Assembly (NCBI GenBank): GCA_003220435.1
Contig: QHSL01000008.1
Span: 1 to 39,133, forward strand
Direction of reading: 5' to 3'
DNA: 39,133 nt
Source of the DNA: Candidatus Rokuibacteriota bacterium
GTDB taxonomy: Bacteria; Methylomirabilota; Methylomirabilia; Rokubacteriales; CSP1-6
Part shown: positions 11,793 to 16,952 of the stretch, piece after piece
Layout of the letters: every line of letters starts with the position of its first letter
Numbering within the stretch: position 1 is the first letter of the stretch
Notes under the pieces: model-generated
The model's database searches: none
What the model was told of the DNA's origin: nothing
Seen by the model: only the letters and a program-made list of their open reading frames with translations
Made by a program: the position numbers and the translations under genes

Positions 11793-12661
11793 GTGCGGAT
11801 CACTCCGTCGCTCAGCACCGGCTCGCCCCCCGCGTCGACGGCATCGAAGGCGATGAGGTCGCCCGCGCGCGCGCGACCGCGGACCGTGATCGTCGAAGGC
11901 ATGCTCACCATTCCCGTGAGCCGCGCCGCGATCTCCCGGACGCGCGCAGGATCCCCGTCGAGCTCCCGTCCGATCACCTGCGACACCGCGAGCGCCAATG
12001 TAGCAGACCCGTGGAGAATCGGCGCCGACAGGCCGGCCTCGCGGGCGACGGCCAGGTCGGTGTGGATCGGGTTCCAGATCCGCGCGCATTCCGAGTACAC
12101 GTGGGCCGCCCAGGACGCGACGGGAACGGGCTTGCTCCAGCGCGCCTCCGACGAGGGCGGCGGGAGAGGCCGGACCAGGGGCTCGACGACCAGACGTGTC
12201 TGGCCGTCGGTCTCGACGCCCCGGAAGACGGAGCCGTACTCGGTCGTGGTGACGGGCCGGCCGTTGCGGTCGACGGTGGAGAAGCGCGCGACGTAGAGGG
12301 TCCCGGTGCGGGTCGACCGGACCTCGGTGACCTGTGCGCGCGTGAGCAGACGGTCGTGAGCGCTGGGCGGCCGATGGATGACCACGTGGTGGGTCGAATG
12401 GACCGCGAGCTTCAACAGCCTCTCGCTGATCGTGCGGGCGCGGAGCGCCAGCACCGCCGGCCACTCGTAGCACACCGAGAAGAGCGGGTGAGCGGCCGGC
12501 CCCGACGCGGACGCGGTGTCGTAGTAGCGCCGGTCGTCGAGGCCGAGCGCCGCCGAGTACGCCATGAGCCAGCGCGCATCGAGCGACGTGCTGACGGCGC
12601 CGATTTCGGTCCCCACGATCTTGCCGGCGATCGTCGCGTGCGCGCCGCGGGGCGCGGTCAT
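11789..12661 (-). CDS. MaoC-like hydratase with N-terminal hot-dog domain
   Basis: 290 aa, apparently two hot-dog domains. The first (TIAGKIVGTEIGAVSTSLDARWLMAYSAALG) resembles the N-terminal FAS1-type hydratase domain. The second holds the hydratase motif ARIWNPIHTDLAVAREAGL followed by APILHGSATLALA. It probably hydrates or dehydrates an acyl-CoA. Both ends overlap neighbours by ATGA (12658-12661 and 11789-11792), so it is co-translated with the activator and the UroD-like gene. Confidence 0.72.
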   Translation of the reverse strand: MTAPRGAHATIAGKIVGTEIGAVSTSLDARWLMAYSAALGLDDRRYYDTASASGPAAHPLFSVCYEWPAVLALRARTISERLLKLAVHSTHHVVIHRPPSAHDRLLTRAQVTEVRSTRTGTLYVARFSTVDRNGRPVTTTEYGSVFRGVETDGQTRLVVEPLVRPLPPPSSEARWSKPVPVASWAAHVYSECARIWNPIHTDLAVAREAGLSAPILHGSATLALAVSQVIGRELDGDPARVREIAARLTGMVSMPSTITVRGRARAGDLIAFDAVDAGGEPVLSDGVIRT

Positions 12662-14538
12662 GCCGGCCGCGGGAAGTTCATGCAGTCGACGAAGATCTGC
12701 TCGAAGTCCGGGTGCGCCGCGAGTGAGACGTGCTCGATCCGCCCGGCCACCGAATCAGCGCGCGCCCGCTCGGCTTCCGAGACCACGCAGAGCTGGGCGC
12801 CGAGCGACGCGGCGTTGCCGACGTACCGGATCCGCTCGCGCGGCAGGGGTGGGATGAGGCCGATCCGCAGCGCACTCTCGATCGACAGATAGTTGCCGAA
12901 GCCGCCCGCCAGCATGAGCTCGGCGACGCGCTCCGCCGGCACGCCCGCGACGTGCTGGAGCATCGCCACACCCGAGGCGATCGCCCCCTTGGCCAGCTGG
13001 ACCTGGCGAACGTCGTCCTGGGTCAGCACGATCTCCTGGCGCGCGCCCGCCTCGCCTGGCCGCAGCACGATGACCTGGCGGTCCTCGCCGCGCATCACGA
13101 CCCGCCCACCGAGCTTCGGCGGGAGCCCGTCCCGCGCCTCCACCTGGATCAGCCCCGTCCAGTCGATGACGCGAGCGTCCAGGAGGCCCGCGATCAGGTC
13201 GATGATCCCGGAGCCGCAGATGCCGAGCGCGTCCGCCTCCCCGATCGTGTGCACGTGGACGTCGTCGTCTACCCGGACGCGGTCGATGGCGCCGAGGGCG
13301 CCCCGCATGCCGTGGCGGATCTGCGCGCCCTCGAGCGCTGGGCCGGCCGGCGCCGAGCACGCCCACAGATGGTCGCGCGAGCCGAGAATCACCTCGCCGT
13401 TGGTCCCGATGTCGACCGCGATGCGGATCTCGGCGCTCTCGTAGATGCGCGTCGCCAGCGCCACGCCGACGGCGTCGGCACCCACGAACCCTGCCACCAG
13501 CGGCAGCAGGCACACCCGCGCCTCCGGCGCGACCTTCAGGAACAGGTCGCGGGCCGCCAGGGTCAGAGCGTGGCGCATCACCGGCGCGTACGGGGCGAGA
13601 CCCACGTGCGACGGATCGATACCGAGCAGGATGTGGTGCATGCAGGTGTTGCCGACGACCACGACCTTGTAGATCCACTTCGCCAGCACGCCCGATTCAC
13701 GACAGATCTGCTCGACGTGCTGGTTCAAGAGCCCGATGATCCGGGTGTGGAGCTTCCTGAGATTGCCGGGGTTGAACTGCGCGAACGCGATGCGTGACAT
13801 GAGGTCGCCGCCGAACACCGATTGGGGATTCAGGCTCGACACCGAGGCGAGCTGCTCGCCCGACTCGAGCTCGACGAGGGTCGTCACCACGCTGGTGGTG
13901 CCGACGTCGATGGCGAGACCGAACTTCATGGCGGCGGTGTCGCCGCGCTCCACCGCGAGGACGCGCTGCCGGCCGCCGTCGGCGAAGGTCGTCACGGTGA
14001 CGCCGGCCGGGTCGTCGCGGAGCGCCTGTGGCAGTCCCTGGATCACCGCGGGGGCGACGTCGTCGGAGGTGAGGCCGACCGCTGCGAGGAGCTGCTCGAG
14101 GTCGGACGTCTGATGATGCTCCTCGCGCGGCAAGTTGACCTTGACCACCTGCTTGGCGACGCCCGAGTCGAGGGTGACGCGGCCGAGCGCGCGGACGCCG
14201 GAGCCGGCGCCGAGGATCTGGAAAGCGCGCTCCTCGAGCGGCGGCGCGAGCAGGACGGAGACCGGCTCGTGGAGCACGCACTGGCAAGAAAGGCGATAAC
14301 CCTCGCGGACGAGATCGCTGCCGAGCTGGAGCTCGTCCATGATCGTCGGCGGCGGCGGGACTCCCGCCAGGAACTTGACCCGGCACGAGGTGCAGCGCCC
14401 GCGGCCCCCGCACGTCGCCGCGATGTCGACGCCGCCGGCGTGCGCGGCCTTGAGGATCGTGGTGCCGATGGCTGTCGTGAGGCTGCGACACGAGGTAGGG
14501 TCGTTCGGATCCGCGATGATCGTCAGCGCAACGGCCAT
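12658..14538 (-). CDS. RACo-like corrinoid-protein reductive activator (2Fe-2S plus ASKHA ATPase)
   Basis: 626 aa. The N-terminal plant-type [2Fe-2S] ferredoxin domain has Cys43, Cys49, Cys52 and Cys85 (TCGGRGRCTSC; SCQC). A linker leads to an ASKHA ATPase domain: FGLAIDVGTTS near residue 207 and IAVDIGTNGE near 373 are its two phosphate motifs, with ALGICGSGIIDLIAG and MLAGGFGNYLS downstream. Such proteins use ATP and an electron to restore Co(II) corrinoid proteins to Co(I). It heads the operon with MaoC and UroD-like genes, but no corrinoid-binding protein is encoded in the window. TAGAAT lies 8 nt before the ATG. Confidence 0.85.
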   Translation of the reverse strand: MAVALTIIADPNDPTSCRSLTTAIGTTILKAAHAGGVDIAATCGGRGRCTSCRVKFLAGVPPPPTIMDELQLGSDLVREGYRLSCQCVLHEPVSVLLAPPLEERAFQILGAGSGVRALGRVTLDSGVAKQVVKVNLPREEHHQTSDLEQLLAAVGLTSDDVAPAVIQGLPQALRDDPAGVTVTTFADGGRQRVLAVERGDTAAMKFGLAIDVGTTSVVTTLVELESGEQLASVSSLNPQSVFGGDLMSRIAFAQFNPGNLRKLHTRIIGLLNQHVEQICRESGVLAKWIYKVVVVGNTCMHHILLGIDPSHVGLAPYAPVMRHALTLAARDLFLKVAPEARVCLLPLVAGFVGADAVGVALATRIYESAEIRIAVDIGTNGEVILGSRDHLWACSAPAGPALEGAQIRHGMRGALGAIDRVRVDDDVHVHTIGEADALGICGSGIIDLIAGLLDARVIDWTGLIQVEARDGLPPKLGGRVVMRGEDRQVIVLRPGEAGARQEIVLTQDDVRQVQLAKGAIASGVAMLQHVAGVPAERVAELMLAGGFGNYLSIESALRIGLIPPLPRERIRYVGNAASLGAQLCVVSEAERARADSVAGRIEHVSLAAHPDFEQIFVDCMNFPRPA

Positions 14539-14546
14539 GGCCTTTC

Positions 14547-14562
14547 ATTCTAGTGGTATGCT
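14547..14562. promoter_or_regulatory. Back-to-back -10 boxes of a divergent promoter pair
   Basis: On the minus strand TAGAAT (14552-14547) lies 8 nt before the activator ATG. On the plus strand TATGCT (14557-14562), preceded by an extended-10 TG, lies 7 nt before the AtzG-like ATG. The whole space between start codons is 31 bp, so each -35 region would fall in or next to the other gene. Confidence 0.4.
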
Positions 14563-14569
14563 CGCGCCC

Positions 14570-14746
14570 ATGGAAATACCCGTTGAGACCTTGCGGCGCC
14601 TGGCTCGACTCGGCGGGTTCGCGTGGACCGACGCCGAGCTGGAGGCGATCCGTCCTGGCGTTCAGCGTCTCCTCGAGACGCTCGAGCGGCTCGAGACCCT
14701 TCCCCTCGACGGGGTCGAGCCGACCACCCAGTATCGGCTGCTGTGA
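14570..14746 (+). CDS. AtzG/GatC-like small amidase partner
   Basis: 58 aa (62 if the ATG at 14558 is used). The sequence VETLRRLARLGGFAWTDAELEAI then LETLPLDGVEPTTQY matches the core of GatC and of the shorter AtzG family: a helix, then a strand motif ending in EPT. AtzG is a small subunit needed by the amidase AtzE. GatC proper is about 95 residues, so the short form plus a following amidase favours AtzG-like. It ends 1 bp before the amidase start. No Shine-Dalgarno. Confidence 0.65.
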   Translation: MEIPVETLRRLARLGGFAWTDAELEAIRPGVQRLLETLERLETLPLDGVEPTTQYRLL

Positions 14747-14747
14747 G

Positions 14748-16163
14748 ATGAGCGACCTCGTCTGGCTCTCCATGGCCGAGCTCGGCCACATGATCTCGAC
14801 GAAGGAGATCTCTCCTCTGGAGGTCGTGCGCGCTCACCTCGACCGCATCGCCGCGCTCGACGGCGGGCTGCGCGCGTTCATCACGGTCTGCGCCGACGGC
14901 GCGCTGCAAGCGGCGCGTGCCGCCGAGACCGACCTGATGGCCGGCAAGGTCGCAGGGCCGCTGCACGGGGTGCCGTGGGCGCCGAAGGACCTCTACGCGA
15001 CGAAGGGAATTCGCACCACCGGCGGATCGAAGATCCTCGCCGAATCGATCCCGTCGGAGGACGCGACGGTCGTGAGCCGCTTGAGCCGGGCCGGCGCCGT
15101 CGTGCTCGGCAAGCTCAACATGCACGAGTTCGCCTACGGGCCCGAGGGGCTCAACGCTCATTACGGCGACGCGCGGAACCCGTGGGATCGAAACGCCCAC
15201 CGGATCGCCGGCGGCTCGTCCTCGGGTTCGGGCGTTGCCGTCGCGGCCGGCCTGGCACCCGGATCGCTCGGCTCCGACACCGGCGGGTCGATCCGGATCC
15301 CGGCCTCGCTGTGCGGGATCACCGGCCTCAAGCCCACCTACGGGCGGGTGAGCCGCGCCGGCGTCCTGCCGCTGTCCTGGTCGATGGACCACGTCGGCCC
15401 GATGACGCGGACGGCGCGTGACTGCGCGCTGATCCTCGGTGCGATCGCCGGCTACGATCCGGCCGATCCGACCACCAGCGTGCTGCCGGTGCCGGACTAT
15501 GCGGCGGCGCTCGGGGGCGAGGTGAGGGGGCTGCGCGTCGGCCTCCTGCGTGCCCACTTCACCGACGTCGCGGCGCCCGAGGTGCGGGCGGCGATCGAAG
15601 CGGCGGCGCGTCGGCTCGAGCTGGCCGGCGCGGTCGTGGACGAGGTGAACCTGACTCAGGTGATCCACGTGGCCGCTGCCTCCTCGGCCATCGTGGCGTC
15701 GGAGGCGGTCGCATACCACGCTGGCTGGATGCGCGCTCGGGCGCAGGACTATCAGCCCGACGTCAGGGAGCGGCTCAGGATCGGCGCGTTCGTCAGCGGC
15801 GCCCACTACGTCCGCGCGCAGCAGGCGCGCGCGCTGGTGCGCCGCGAGGTCGACGACGCGCTCGCGAAGCGCGACGTGCTCCTGGCGCCGGCGACGCCGA
15901 TCGCGGCTCCCGCCGTCGGCGAGCGCGACACCACGCTGGGGGACGGGCCGTCGGACGTCCGGTCGGCGCTCATCCGCCTGACGCGGCCGTTCAACTTCTC
16001 GGGCCATCCCTGCTGCGCGGCGCCCTGCGGCTTCACCGCCGGCGGTCTCCCGATCGGCTTGCAGGTCGTCGGACGGCCGTTCGACGAGGCGACGGTGCTG
16101 CGGGTCGTCGACGCGTACCAGCGGCTCACCGACTGGCACACGCGCCGCCCCGAGCCCGCGTGA
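14748..16163 (+). CDS. Amidase-signature family hydrolase (GatA/AtzE-like)
   Basis: 471 aa. The Ser-cisSer-Lys triad is intact: Lys80 (PWAPKDLY), Ser157 in AGGSSSGSG, and Ser181 in GSDTGGSIRIPAS, with the same 24-residue spacing between serines as in GatA. This supports an active amide hydrolase. The preceding AtzG-like gene suggests a two-subunit enzyme of the AtzE type rather than tRNA amidotransferase, since no gatB is nearby. The ATG at 14748 is two bases after the AtzG-like stop. The substrate could be a biuret- or urea-type compound but is not determined. Confidence 0.82.
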   Translation: MSDLVWLSMAELGHMISTKEISPLEVVRAHLDRIAALDGGLRAFITVCADGALQAARAAETDLMAGKVAGPLHGVPWAPKDLYATKGIRTTGGSKILAESIPSEDATVVSRLSRAGAVVLGKLNMHEFAYGPEGLNAHYGDARNPWDRNAHRIAGGSSSGSGVAVAAGLAPGSLGSDTGGSIRIPASLCGITGLKPTYGRVSRAGVLPLSWSMDHVGPMTRTARDCALILGAIAGYDPADPTTSVLPVPDYAAALGGEVRGLRVGLLRAHFTDVAAPEVRAAIEAAARRLELAGAVVDEVNLTQVIHVAAASSAIVASEAVAYHAGWMRARAQDYQPDVRERLRIGAFVSGAHYVRAQQARALVRREVDDALAKRDVLLAPATPIAAPAVGERDTTLGDGPSDVRSALIRLTRPFNFSGHPCCAAPCGFTAGGLPIGLQVVGRPFDEATVLRVVDAYQRLTDWHTRRPEPA

Positions 16164-16188
16164 GCCACAGGGGTTTCAGGAGGACTCG

Positions 16189-16599
16189 ATGAGCGACGCG
16201 GACCTCGATCGGCGACTCGGCGCGCTCGAGTCGCGCTTCGACCACCTCGAACGGCTCCTCGCCGCGATCCACGACAAGCTCGATCGCGTCGTGCCCCGCG
16301 TGGATGAAGCGAAGCGGGAGCTCCAGGCGTGGGTGACCGAATACGTGTCGTTGCGACTGCAGCAGCTCGTGCCGGAGACGTGCGAGCACCCGGAGCGCGA
16401 AGCAGACGCGGCCGCGGTCGACGGCCCCGTGTTGCCGGGGACGCGCATCCGCTGCACGGACGAGGTCATCAGCCGGCTCGGTCGGATCCCGATTCCGTTC
16501 GTCCGGCAGATGGTCACGCAGAAGGTCGCCGAGACGGCGCGCGCCGAGAACGTCGGCATGGTGGACGTCCCCTTCTTCGAGCGGGCCGCGACCTTCTGA
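16189..16599 (+). CDS. PCP_red-domain protein with N-terminal coiled coil; UGA stop may be recoded
   Basis: 136 aa to the first TGA. Residues 1-55 form a charged coiled coil (LGALESRFDHLERLLAAI). The C-terminal half, TDEVISRLGRIPIPFVRQM then VAETARAENVGMVDVPFF, resembles the PCP_red helical domain found at the end of protochlorophyllide reductase BchB and in small stand-alone proteins. AGGAGG precedes the ATG by 5 nt. After TGA (16597-16599) the same frame continues for 25 codons to TAG 16675-16677 with 22 of 25 codons ending in G or C. A strong hairpin begins 6 nt after the TGA. The full read-through product would be 162 residues with residue 137 as selenocysteine. No function is known. Confidence 0.65.
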   Translation: MSDADLDRRLGALESRFDHLERLLAAIHDKLDRVVPRVDEAKRELQAWVTEYVSLRLQQLVPETCEHPEREADAAAVDGPVLPGTRIRCTDEVISRLGRIPIPFVRQMVTQKVAETARAENVGMVDVPFFERAATF

Positions 16600-16601
16600 C
16601 A

Positions 16602-16952
16602 GTGCAAGCTCTCGGGGGAGGATCTCCTGAGCTTCGATCACTGGACGCAGCACGTGCTGGAAGGGCCGCGGCTGTAGACGAGCCCATCCGCATCCCGATC
16701 GAGGATGCGCTGGATCTCCACGCGTTCGCGCCGCGCGACATCCCGTCGGTCGTCGACGAGTACCTGGAGGCAGCCTTCGCGCGGGGGTTCAGCGAGGTCC
16801 GACTCATCCACGGCCGGGGCGTCGGTGTCCAGCGGAGGATCGTCCAGGCGGTGGTCGCCCGACACCCTCGGGTTGTCGGCTATGCGGACGCGCCGCCGGA
16901 GCGCGGGGGCGCCGGCGCCACGCTGGTTCGACTTCGTCCCCGCTCCGGCTGA
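16602..16952 (+). CDS. Smr-domain protein (start uncertain)
   Basis: The Smr fold is clear in the last 85 residues: IPIEDALDLHAFAP holds the DLH motif, and EVRLIHGRGVGVQRRIV is the HGxGxG nucleic-acid/nuclease motif. Stand-alone Smr proteins bind or cut branched nucleic acids. The GTG at 16602 is the only standard in-frame start, but the codons from there to 16673 have low GC3 while the other frame has high GC3. True Smr coding therefore seems to begin around 16674, where no start codon exists (GTA overlapping the TAG of the upstream frame). Frameshifting, a non-standard start, or initiation at the GTG are all possible. It converges with the methyltransferase gene. Confidence 0.7.
   Translation: MQALGGGSPELRSLDAARAGRAAAVDEPIRIPIEDALDLHAFAPRDIPSVVDEYLEAAFARGFSEVRLIHGRGVGVQRRIVQAVVARHPRVVGYADAPPERGGAGATLVRLRPRSG
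16606..16634 (+). promoter_or_regulatory. Hairpin immediately after an in-frame TGA, SECIS-like
   Basis: AAGCTC (16606-16611) pairs with GAGCTT (16629-16634). After a one-sided TCGG bulge, GGGAG (16616-16620) pairs with CTCCT (16624-16628), including one G-U. The loop is GAT. The loop begins 21 nt after the TGA and its first base is G, which satisfies the general bacterial SECIS description as I know it. No T-tract follows. Confidence 0.45.

Follow-up and report, generated by a model that had tools for sequence, protein, structure and literature searches.

Organization of the locus

The analyzed window, a 39,133-nt stretch from a Candidatus Rokuibacteriota bacterium, corresponds to contig C14 in a genome of 5.44 Mb, and the features considered here are collected in Table 1. 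In agreement with the earlier note, an open reading frame starting with ATG at 16189 meets TGA at 16597–16599, its one in-frame UGA, and then stays open for 25 codons until TAG at 16675–16677; 22 of these 25 codons have G or C in third position. No signal sequence was seen by eye in the encoded protein. The conserved gene upstream is putatively amidase-like by its sequence, and further upstream Pfam identified a RACo-type protein at 12658–14538 on the minus strand (RACo_C_ter, 253 bits). For the downstream Smr frame (16602–16952), the sole start found, GTG 16602, falls within the tail that follows the UGA. The reading frame of Smr relative to that of the putative selenoprotein gene varies between genomes, and in eight loci (L028, L030, L038, L039, L040, L044, L045, and L055) the open frame contains no ATG, GTG, or TTG before the Smr motif.

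Table 1. Features of the putative selenoprotein locus, in window coordinates.
Feature	Position	Strand	Basis
Conserved Rokubacterial neighbor upstream, same strand	14553..16163	+	34/35 Rokubacterial loci
AGGAGG, ribosome-binding-site-like	16178..16183	+	5 nt upstream of ATG; read directly
Putative selenoprotein gene, 162 residues with Sec137	16189..16677	+	Frame and relatives
PCP_red-like domain, residues 89–136	16453..16596	+	Pfam match to residues 95–133 (20 bits), alignment, Foldseek match to 2kru
U-x-C motif: UGA (predicted Sec137), Gln138, Cys139	16597..16605	+	TGA in 79/80 and QC in 80/80 named loci
Remainder of conserved C-terminal tail and terminal stop TAG 16675–16677	16606..16677	+	dN/dS, codon table
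SECIS-like hairpin, 8 bp including A16619–U16623, loop A-GGA-U at 16619–16623	16612..16630	+	bSECIS criteria and pair counts
Downstream Smr-domain gene	16674..16952, part from conserved DEPI on	+	PF01713, 70 bits; 35/35 Rokubacterial loci

The in-frame UGA is retained among relatives

To collect relatives, the genome_contigs collection (84,980 species) was scanned with two short motifs that both end before the UGA, so that cysteine forms carrying the same motifs would be caught as well. The scan matched 190 stretches, 85 of which encode relatives, and 80 were kept as named loci, namely 35 of the Rokubacteria type, three from other Methylomirabilota, two from Entotheonella, and 40 from Poribacteria; some of their genomes are shared with the set of 45 relatives aligned from whole-genome searches. 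The earlier note had proposed to look at the residue aligned with position 137, and the relatives indeed have UGA there, followed by a retained tail: the codon was TGA in 79 and TTA in one of the 80 named loci, and TGA in 44 and TTA in one of the 45 whole-genome relatives. No cysteine occurred at this position either in the 80 named loci (of the 85 relatives from the two-motif scan) or in the 45 whole-genome relatives. In contrast, the stop that closes the tail of the 80 named loci was TAG in 36, TAA in 28, and TGA in 16. Were the inner UGA an ordinary stop, one would expect a comparable mix of stop codons there, which is not what is seen.

A similar distribution was obtained by taxonomic rank. 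All nine genomes of the genus carry the full-length gene, eight with one internal TGA and G004 without. Within the family, some match was found in 46 of the 57 genomes (E 0.001), and the UGA gene was counted in 41 of the 57 (38 nearly full length, three cut or short), with TTA in G004; a search of 95 genomes of the phylum added three further UGA genes, all from genus g33. In the phylum of one Entotheonella, four of the five genomes carry the gene with TGA, one split over two frames. In that split copy (L181 and L182, genome G136) two matches overlap, as a frameshift or an assembly error would produce. The single exception to the UGA comes from the nearest relative (G004, isolate AR34; loci L024 and L086; 90% identical), in which TTA (Leu) replaces TGA in an otherwise intact frame; either Sec was genuinely lost in this genome or the assembly is wrong here. 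L102, from a record titled Chloroflexi, is a typical Rokubacterial copy with 73% identity and probably belongs to a misnamed genome bin.

The U-x-C motif pointed out in the earlier note is also conserved, with QC directly after the UGA position in all 80 named loci. Variants of the middle residue were U-P-C in L063 and U-A-C in L065 and L066, two short forms of genus g23 that end in YUACRAQ[PS]GA and have a different hairpin. In the short forms, their own stop codon sits in the loop of the predicted hairpin.

Selection on the tail downstream of the UGA

The dN/dS ratio was calculated as summed dN over summed dS (NG86) from the usable pairs. Poribacterial tails (40 loci) gave a ratio of 0.086 (548 of 780 pairs usable), and 0.068 for the part past the hairpin (454 of 780 pairs usable), with 0.046 for the 23 codons preceding the UGA. 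The corresponding values in Rokubacteria (38 sequences) were 0.378 for the tail (699 of 703 pairs), 0.43 for tail codons 13–25 (690 of 703 pairs), and 0.159 for the 25 codons preceding the UGA. When the Rokubacterial sequences were read in shifted frames, the ratio was 0.956 in the first frame (14 pairs) and 1.285 in the second (618 pairs); Poribacterial shifted frames had one usable pair each and were left out. The 38-sequence set retains L024 and leaves out L063, and also L054, L065, L066, L073, L074, and L075, the tails of which are not 25 codons long. These ratios indicated that the tail is under selection at the protein level, and that this selection is weaker in Rokubacteria than in Poribacteria. 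Ten tail residues (Q1, C2, G6, E7, D8, L9, H14, W15, H18, and G22) were fixed in 38/38 Rokubacterial sequences; four of them lie in the hairpin, where the RNA may hold them constant, and the loop codons GAG-GAT-CTC were likewise fixed in 38/38.

The conservation of the tail might also be explained by a true stop at the UGA and an overlapping Smr gene beyond it, given that the Smr frame of the window is open across the tail and that an Smr gene follows in all 35 Rokubacterial loci. However, the first usual Smr start is located 195 nt (L052) or 252 nt (L058) beyond the tail stop in two loci with a still conserved tail, and the Smr query found no match in any of the remaining 45 loci (tblastn at E 1e-8, flanks of up to about 3 kb). 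Further, the selenoprotein frame gives a dN/dS under 1, compared with 1.285 for the second shifted frame, and a plain stop would hardly remain TGA in 79 of 80 loci. Based on the starts in L052 and L058, the dN/dS values, and the absence from the 45 loci, the Smr overlap was rejected as the source of tail conservation, and we give termination at the UGA a negligible probability.

A conserved SECIS-like hairpin follows the UGA

A hairpin just downstream of the UGA had been described in the earlier note. It is present, although the pairing that is conserved differs slightly from the one drawn there: nt 13–20 after the UGA pair with nt 24–31 around the A-GGA-U loop, and this arrangement is common to Rokubacteria, other Methylomirabilota, and Entotheonella. 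With one further outward pair included, the nine pairs were scored in 35 distinct sequences of these lineages, and 301 of 315 cells were paired, compared with 90–196 cells when the partner was slid by 1–3 positions. Changes on both sides of a pair were found in only 3 cells of this set, while slides of +2 and +3 reached 9. In Poribacteria, six pairs are kept with different letters (167 of 168 cells); the nine-pair register was paired in 179 of 252 cells versus 191 at slide −2, so the outer pairs are unsupported there and the six pairs are supported. In the joint hairpin set, 480 of 567 cells were paired and slides gave at most 353; 39 cells were changed on both sides versus at most 17 for slides, and these 39 changes stem from the comparison between lineages. 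All pair counts were made without L024, and L065 and L066 were not counted. The loop read AGGAU in 35, AGUUC in 16, and AGUUU in 12 of the 63 distinct sequences, and in all 63 its first G is nt 21 downstream of the UGA.

This geometry fits the bSECIS model as set out in a recent review (PMC13188914). When the published bSECIS criteria were applied by script, as the earlier note had suggested in kind, 68 of 72 distinct sequences passed. The conserved hairpin has a G[G/U] loop. As a control, the UGA stops of other ORFs of at least 200 codons were scored, and 30 of 72 such stops in Rokubacterial loci and 1 of 14 in Poribacterial loci also passed. Synonymous recodings of the tail passed in 50 of 300 cases for the window, 90 of 300 for L060, 15 of 300 for L145, and 72 of 300 for L128; L065 gave 0 of 300, its 8-codon tail being too short for the recoding test. 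A single-sequence hairpin score was therefore rejected as proof, because ordinary UGA stops pass too often, and a hairpin of such quality in one sequence is weak evidence. What exceeds chance is that the UGA, the tail, and the hairpin are conserved. The Rfam gathering scan of the window gave no match.

Selenocysteine machinery in the host genomes

The genes for Sec decoding, which the earlier note had proposed to look for, were all found in the window's genome: tRNA-Sec (69.8 bits), selB (351 bits), and selA (568 bits) lie close together on contig C138, and selD (341 bits), itself with one in-frame TGA, lies on contig C100. In the phylum search, tRNA-Sec was detected in 79 and selB in 83 of the 95 genomes. 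By our own count, 44 genomes of the phylum carry the UGA gene; 41 of them have selB and/or tRNA-Sec, and neither of the two was found in the other three (G008, G041, and G052); as selB and tRNA-Sec lie within 5 kb of each other in the window's genome, one assembly gap could hide both. Among the Poribacterial and Entotheonella genomes searched, 37 of 41 have selB (the genome of L138 was not among them).

Translation past the UGA might instead insert another amino acid, such as Trp through near-cognate reading, without selenocysteine. The sequence by itself shows translation past the UGA and not the residue inserted, and one relative has a Leu codon. However, the U-x-C motif is kept in 80 of 80 named loci, the 79 TGA and one TTA codons at this position include no Trp codon, a bSECIS-like hairpin is retained with lineage-specific stems, and Sec machinery is present in most hosts, which together make this explanation very unlikely. 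Neither relatives that stop at this place with TAA or TAG nor an absence of Sec machinery from the window's genome, the two findings that the earlier note held to be contrary to its interpretation, were encountered, the one deviating relative having TTA (Leu). The comparative data thus support the selenoprotein interpretation of that note, and it is highly likely that the gene encodes a selenoprotein with Sec inserted at the UGA. The UGA at 16597 would be decoded as selenocysteine by SelB with Sec-tRNA, the hairpin directly downstream acting as the guide, and translation would continue to TAG 16675.

A PCP_red-like domain followed by a predicted Sec-x-Cys

The earlier note had called the protein PCP_red-like. 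Against PF08369, the window protein gave a weak match of 20 bits, below the curated cut-off of 32.5, so it is named PCP_red-like only; PF08369 was matched at E 0.01 or better by 44 of 48 family members. The resemblance was more evident from the predicted structure. An AlphaFold model built from the 48 sequences, with Sec replaced by Cys (mean pLDDT 73.7, pTM 0.39), contained predicted helices at residues 3–34, 36–60, 91–98, 103–119, 127–137, and 149–157, with pLDDT below 50 for residues 64–77 and 140–144. The top-ranked Foldseek matches of this model were the solved PCP_red domains 2kru and 2l09, and the PF08369 fold, represented by the solved domain 2kru, was recognized with a probability of 1.00, E 0.013, and an rmsd of 1.1 Å over 47 columns; no Foldseek match reached E 0.001 or better. 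A sequence-profile search of solved structures returned 18 matches (E 0.015–0.87), mostly coiled coils and no PCP_red domain. A plasmid search gave no match.

The window protein is small: an N-terminal coiled coil leads into a PCP_red-like helical domain, and a predicted Sec-x-Cys pair lies toward the C-terminus. It shares the helical domain with PCP_red proteins (PF08369), which include the subunit B domain of protochlorophyllide reductase (2kru) and asr4154 of Nostoc (2l09), and differs from them in having Cys89 in place of Trp and a Sec-x-Cys tail after the last helix. In the alignment, Cys89 occupies the position of a Trp in all seven compared PCP_red domains (six from the window's genome, Poribacteria, and Entotheonella, and the L069 paralogue), and Sec137 comes directly after the domain. 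Cys65, His67, Cys89, and Cys139 do not vary across the alignment of 48 sequences, which comprises the window protein and 47 of 79 loci, L114 having been left out of the candidate list. The short forms L065 and L066 are without the coiled coil and the Cys65 region and retain Cys89, Sec, and Cys; likewise, L063 is without Cys65 and its surroundings and retains Cys89, Sec, and Cys139. Since the short forms keep these residues, the smallest conserved unit consists of Cys89, the PCP_red-like fold, and Sec-x-Cys.

Redox activity is common among short Sec-x-Cys motifs. A selenol/thiol redox center would most likely be formed by Sec137 and Cys139, perhaps together with Cys89, and a redox role of the protein appears somewhat probable to us. 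A competing proposal concerns this redox step only and leaves Sec insertion as it is: a metal, heme, or Fe-S center would be bound by Sec, Cys139, Cys89, and, in the proteins that have them, Cys65 and His67. The invariance of the four Cys and His residues in the 48-sequence alignment would suit such a site, as would the rubredoxin-like or radical SAM parts borne by other PCP_red proteins of the window's genome. Nevertheless, L063, L065, and L066 keep Cys89, Sec, and Cys139 without the Cys65 region, and the usual redox activity of short Sec-x-Cys motifs also speaks against ligand binding, which we consider rather unlikely.

A radical SAM gene lies upstream in Poribacteria and Entotheonella

A radical SAM/SPASM gene was found upstream on the same strand, 45–1,859 nt away, in 37 of the 40 loci from Poribacteria and in both loci from Entotheonella; three Poribacterial loci have less than 2,500 bases upstream. 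Its product scored 301–325 bits with TIGR04545 and TIGR04055, against a cut-off of 500; the AhbD heme b synthase and NirJ2 of these models are closest to it, and, being under the cut-off, it is only termed AhbD/NirJ-like. This likeness concerns the neighbor gene and not the selenoprotein. The upstream radical SAM protein bears a C-terminal PCP_red domain of its own.

In Rokubacteria, no radical SAM gene was adjacent in any of the 35 loci (flanks of about 3 kb), and strong matches to the Entotheonella radical SAM protein, mostly 71–78% identical, were found elsewhere in 45 of the 57 family genomes (our own count; 47 of 57 by the search threshold). In the family, 37 genomes had both the selenoprotein gene and the radical SAM gene, five the former only, eight the latter only, and seven neither, an association with a Fisher p of 0.009, uncorrected for kinship or missing contigs. 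For this table, G004 was counted with the selenoprotein gene, and G039 and G053, with radical SAM matches of 35 and 33%, were counted without an orthologue.

In the window's genome, a protein with Usp, three PCP_red, and rubredoxin-like parts adjoins an AhbD/NirJ-like radical SAM protein with PCP_red (L166:2816-6706), and COX3 genes lie near this pair. The Usp-PCP_red partner recurred in 9 of the 10 loci examined, in which queries with COX3, COX4, and DUF983 gave no match (flanks of about 1.5 kb).

The proposed redox center would serve an enzyme with its own PCP_red domain, for which the AhbD/NirJ-like radical SAM protein is the best candidate. A functional link between the two is put forward tentatively. 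More speculative, and in our view doubtful, is a fuller scheme for Rokubacteria, Entotheonella, and Poribacteria, in which the protein would be a selenium-dependent, perhaps obligate, partner of the AhbD/NirJ-like radical SAM enzyme, with PCP_red serving both proteins as a docking or tetrapyrrole-binding module and Sec-x-Cys supplying or removing electrons in a heme-type modification.

Novelty and implications of the family

The window protein matched no NCBIfam or Pfam model above its cut-off, and none of the 48 members matched the selenoprotein models of NCBIfam release 20 at E 0.1. The table of PMC13188914, in the part accessible, gives 119 selenoprotein families, none with PCP_red, and the family is not listed in the accessible portion of the deep-Sep paper (PMC12013277). 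Word searches of the literature, in the texts they reached, found no description of the family, and an earlier mention is possible. Two entries in Table 1 of PMC13188914, thioredoxin-like Sec.2 (PF13192) and the SO_0444 family Cu/Zn efflux transporter (NF033936), are given there with a U-x-C on an in-frame UGA as well; unlike these, the protein described here is all-helical in its predicted model and not thioredoxin-like. The same review also cites Deng et al. (2026) for a genome of Methylomirabilota in which 63 selenoprotein genes are predicted. Taken together, this is very probably a real selenoprotein family, and one that is new relative to what PMC13188914 and PMC12013277 list in the parts accessible.

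The finding would extend the selenoproteins by a family that is common to three uncultured bacterial lineages and in which no Cys form was observed. It would also bring Sec to a domain familiar from protochlorophyllide reductase. With ordinary annotation, such genes likely end at the UGA, and the probable active site would be lost. The proposed link to a radical SAM enzyme that likewise bears PCP_red would provide a testable lead on the role of PCP_red outside photosynthesis.
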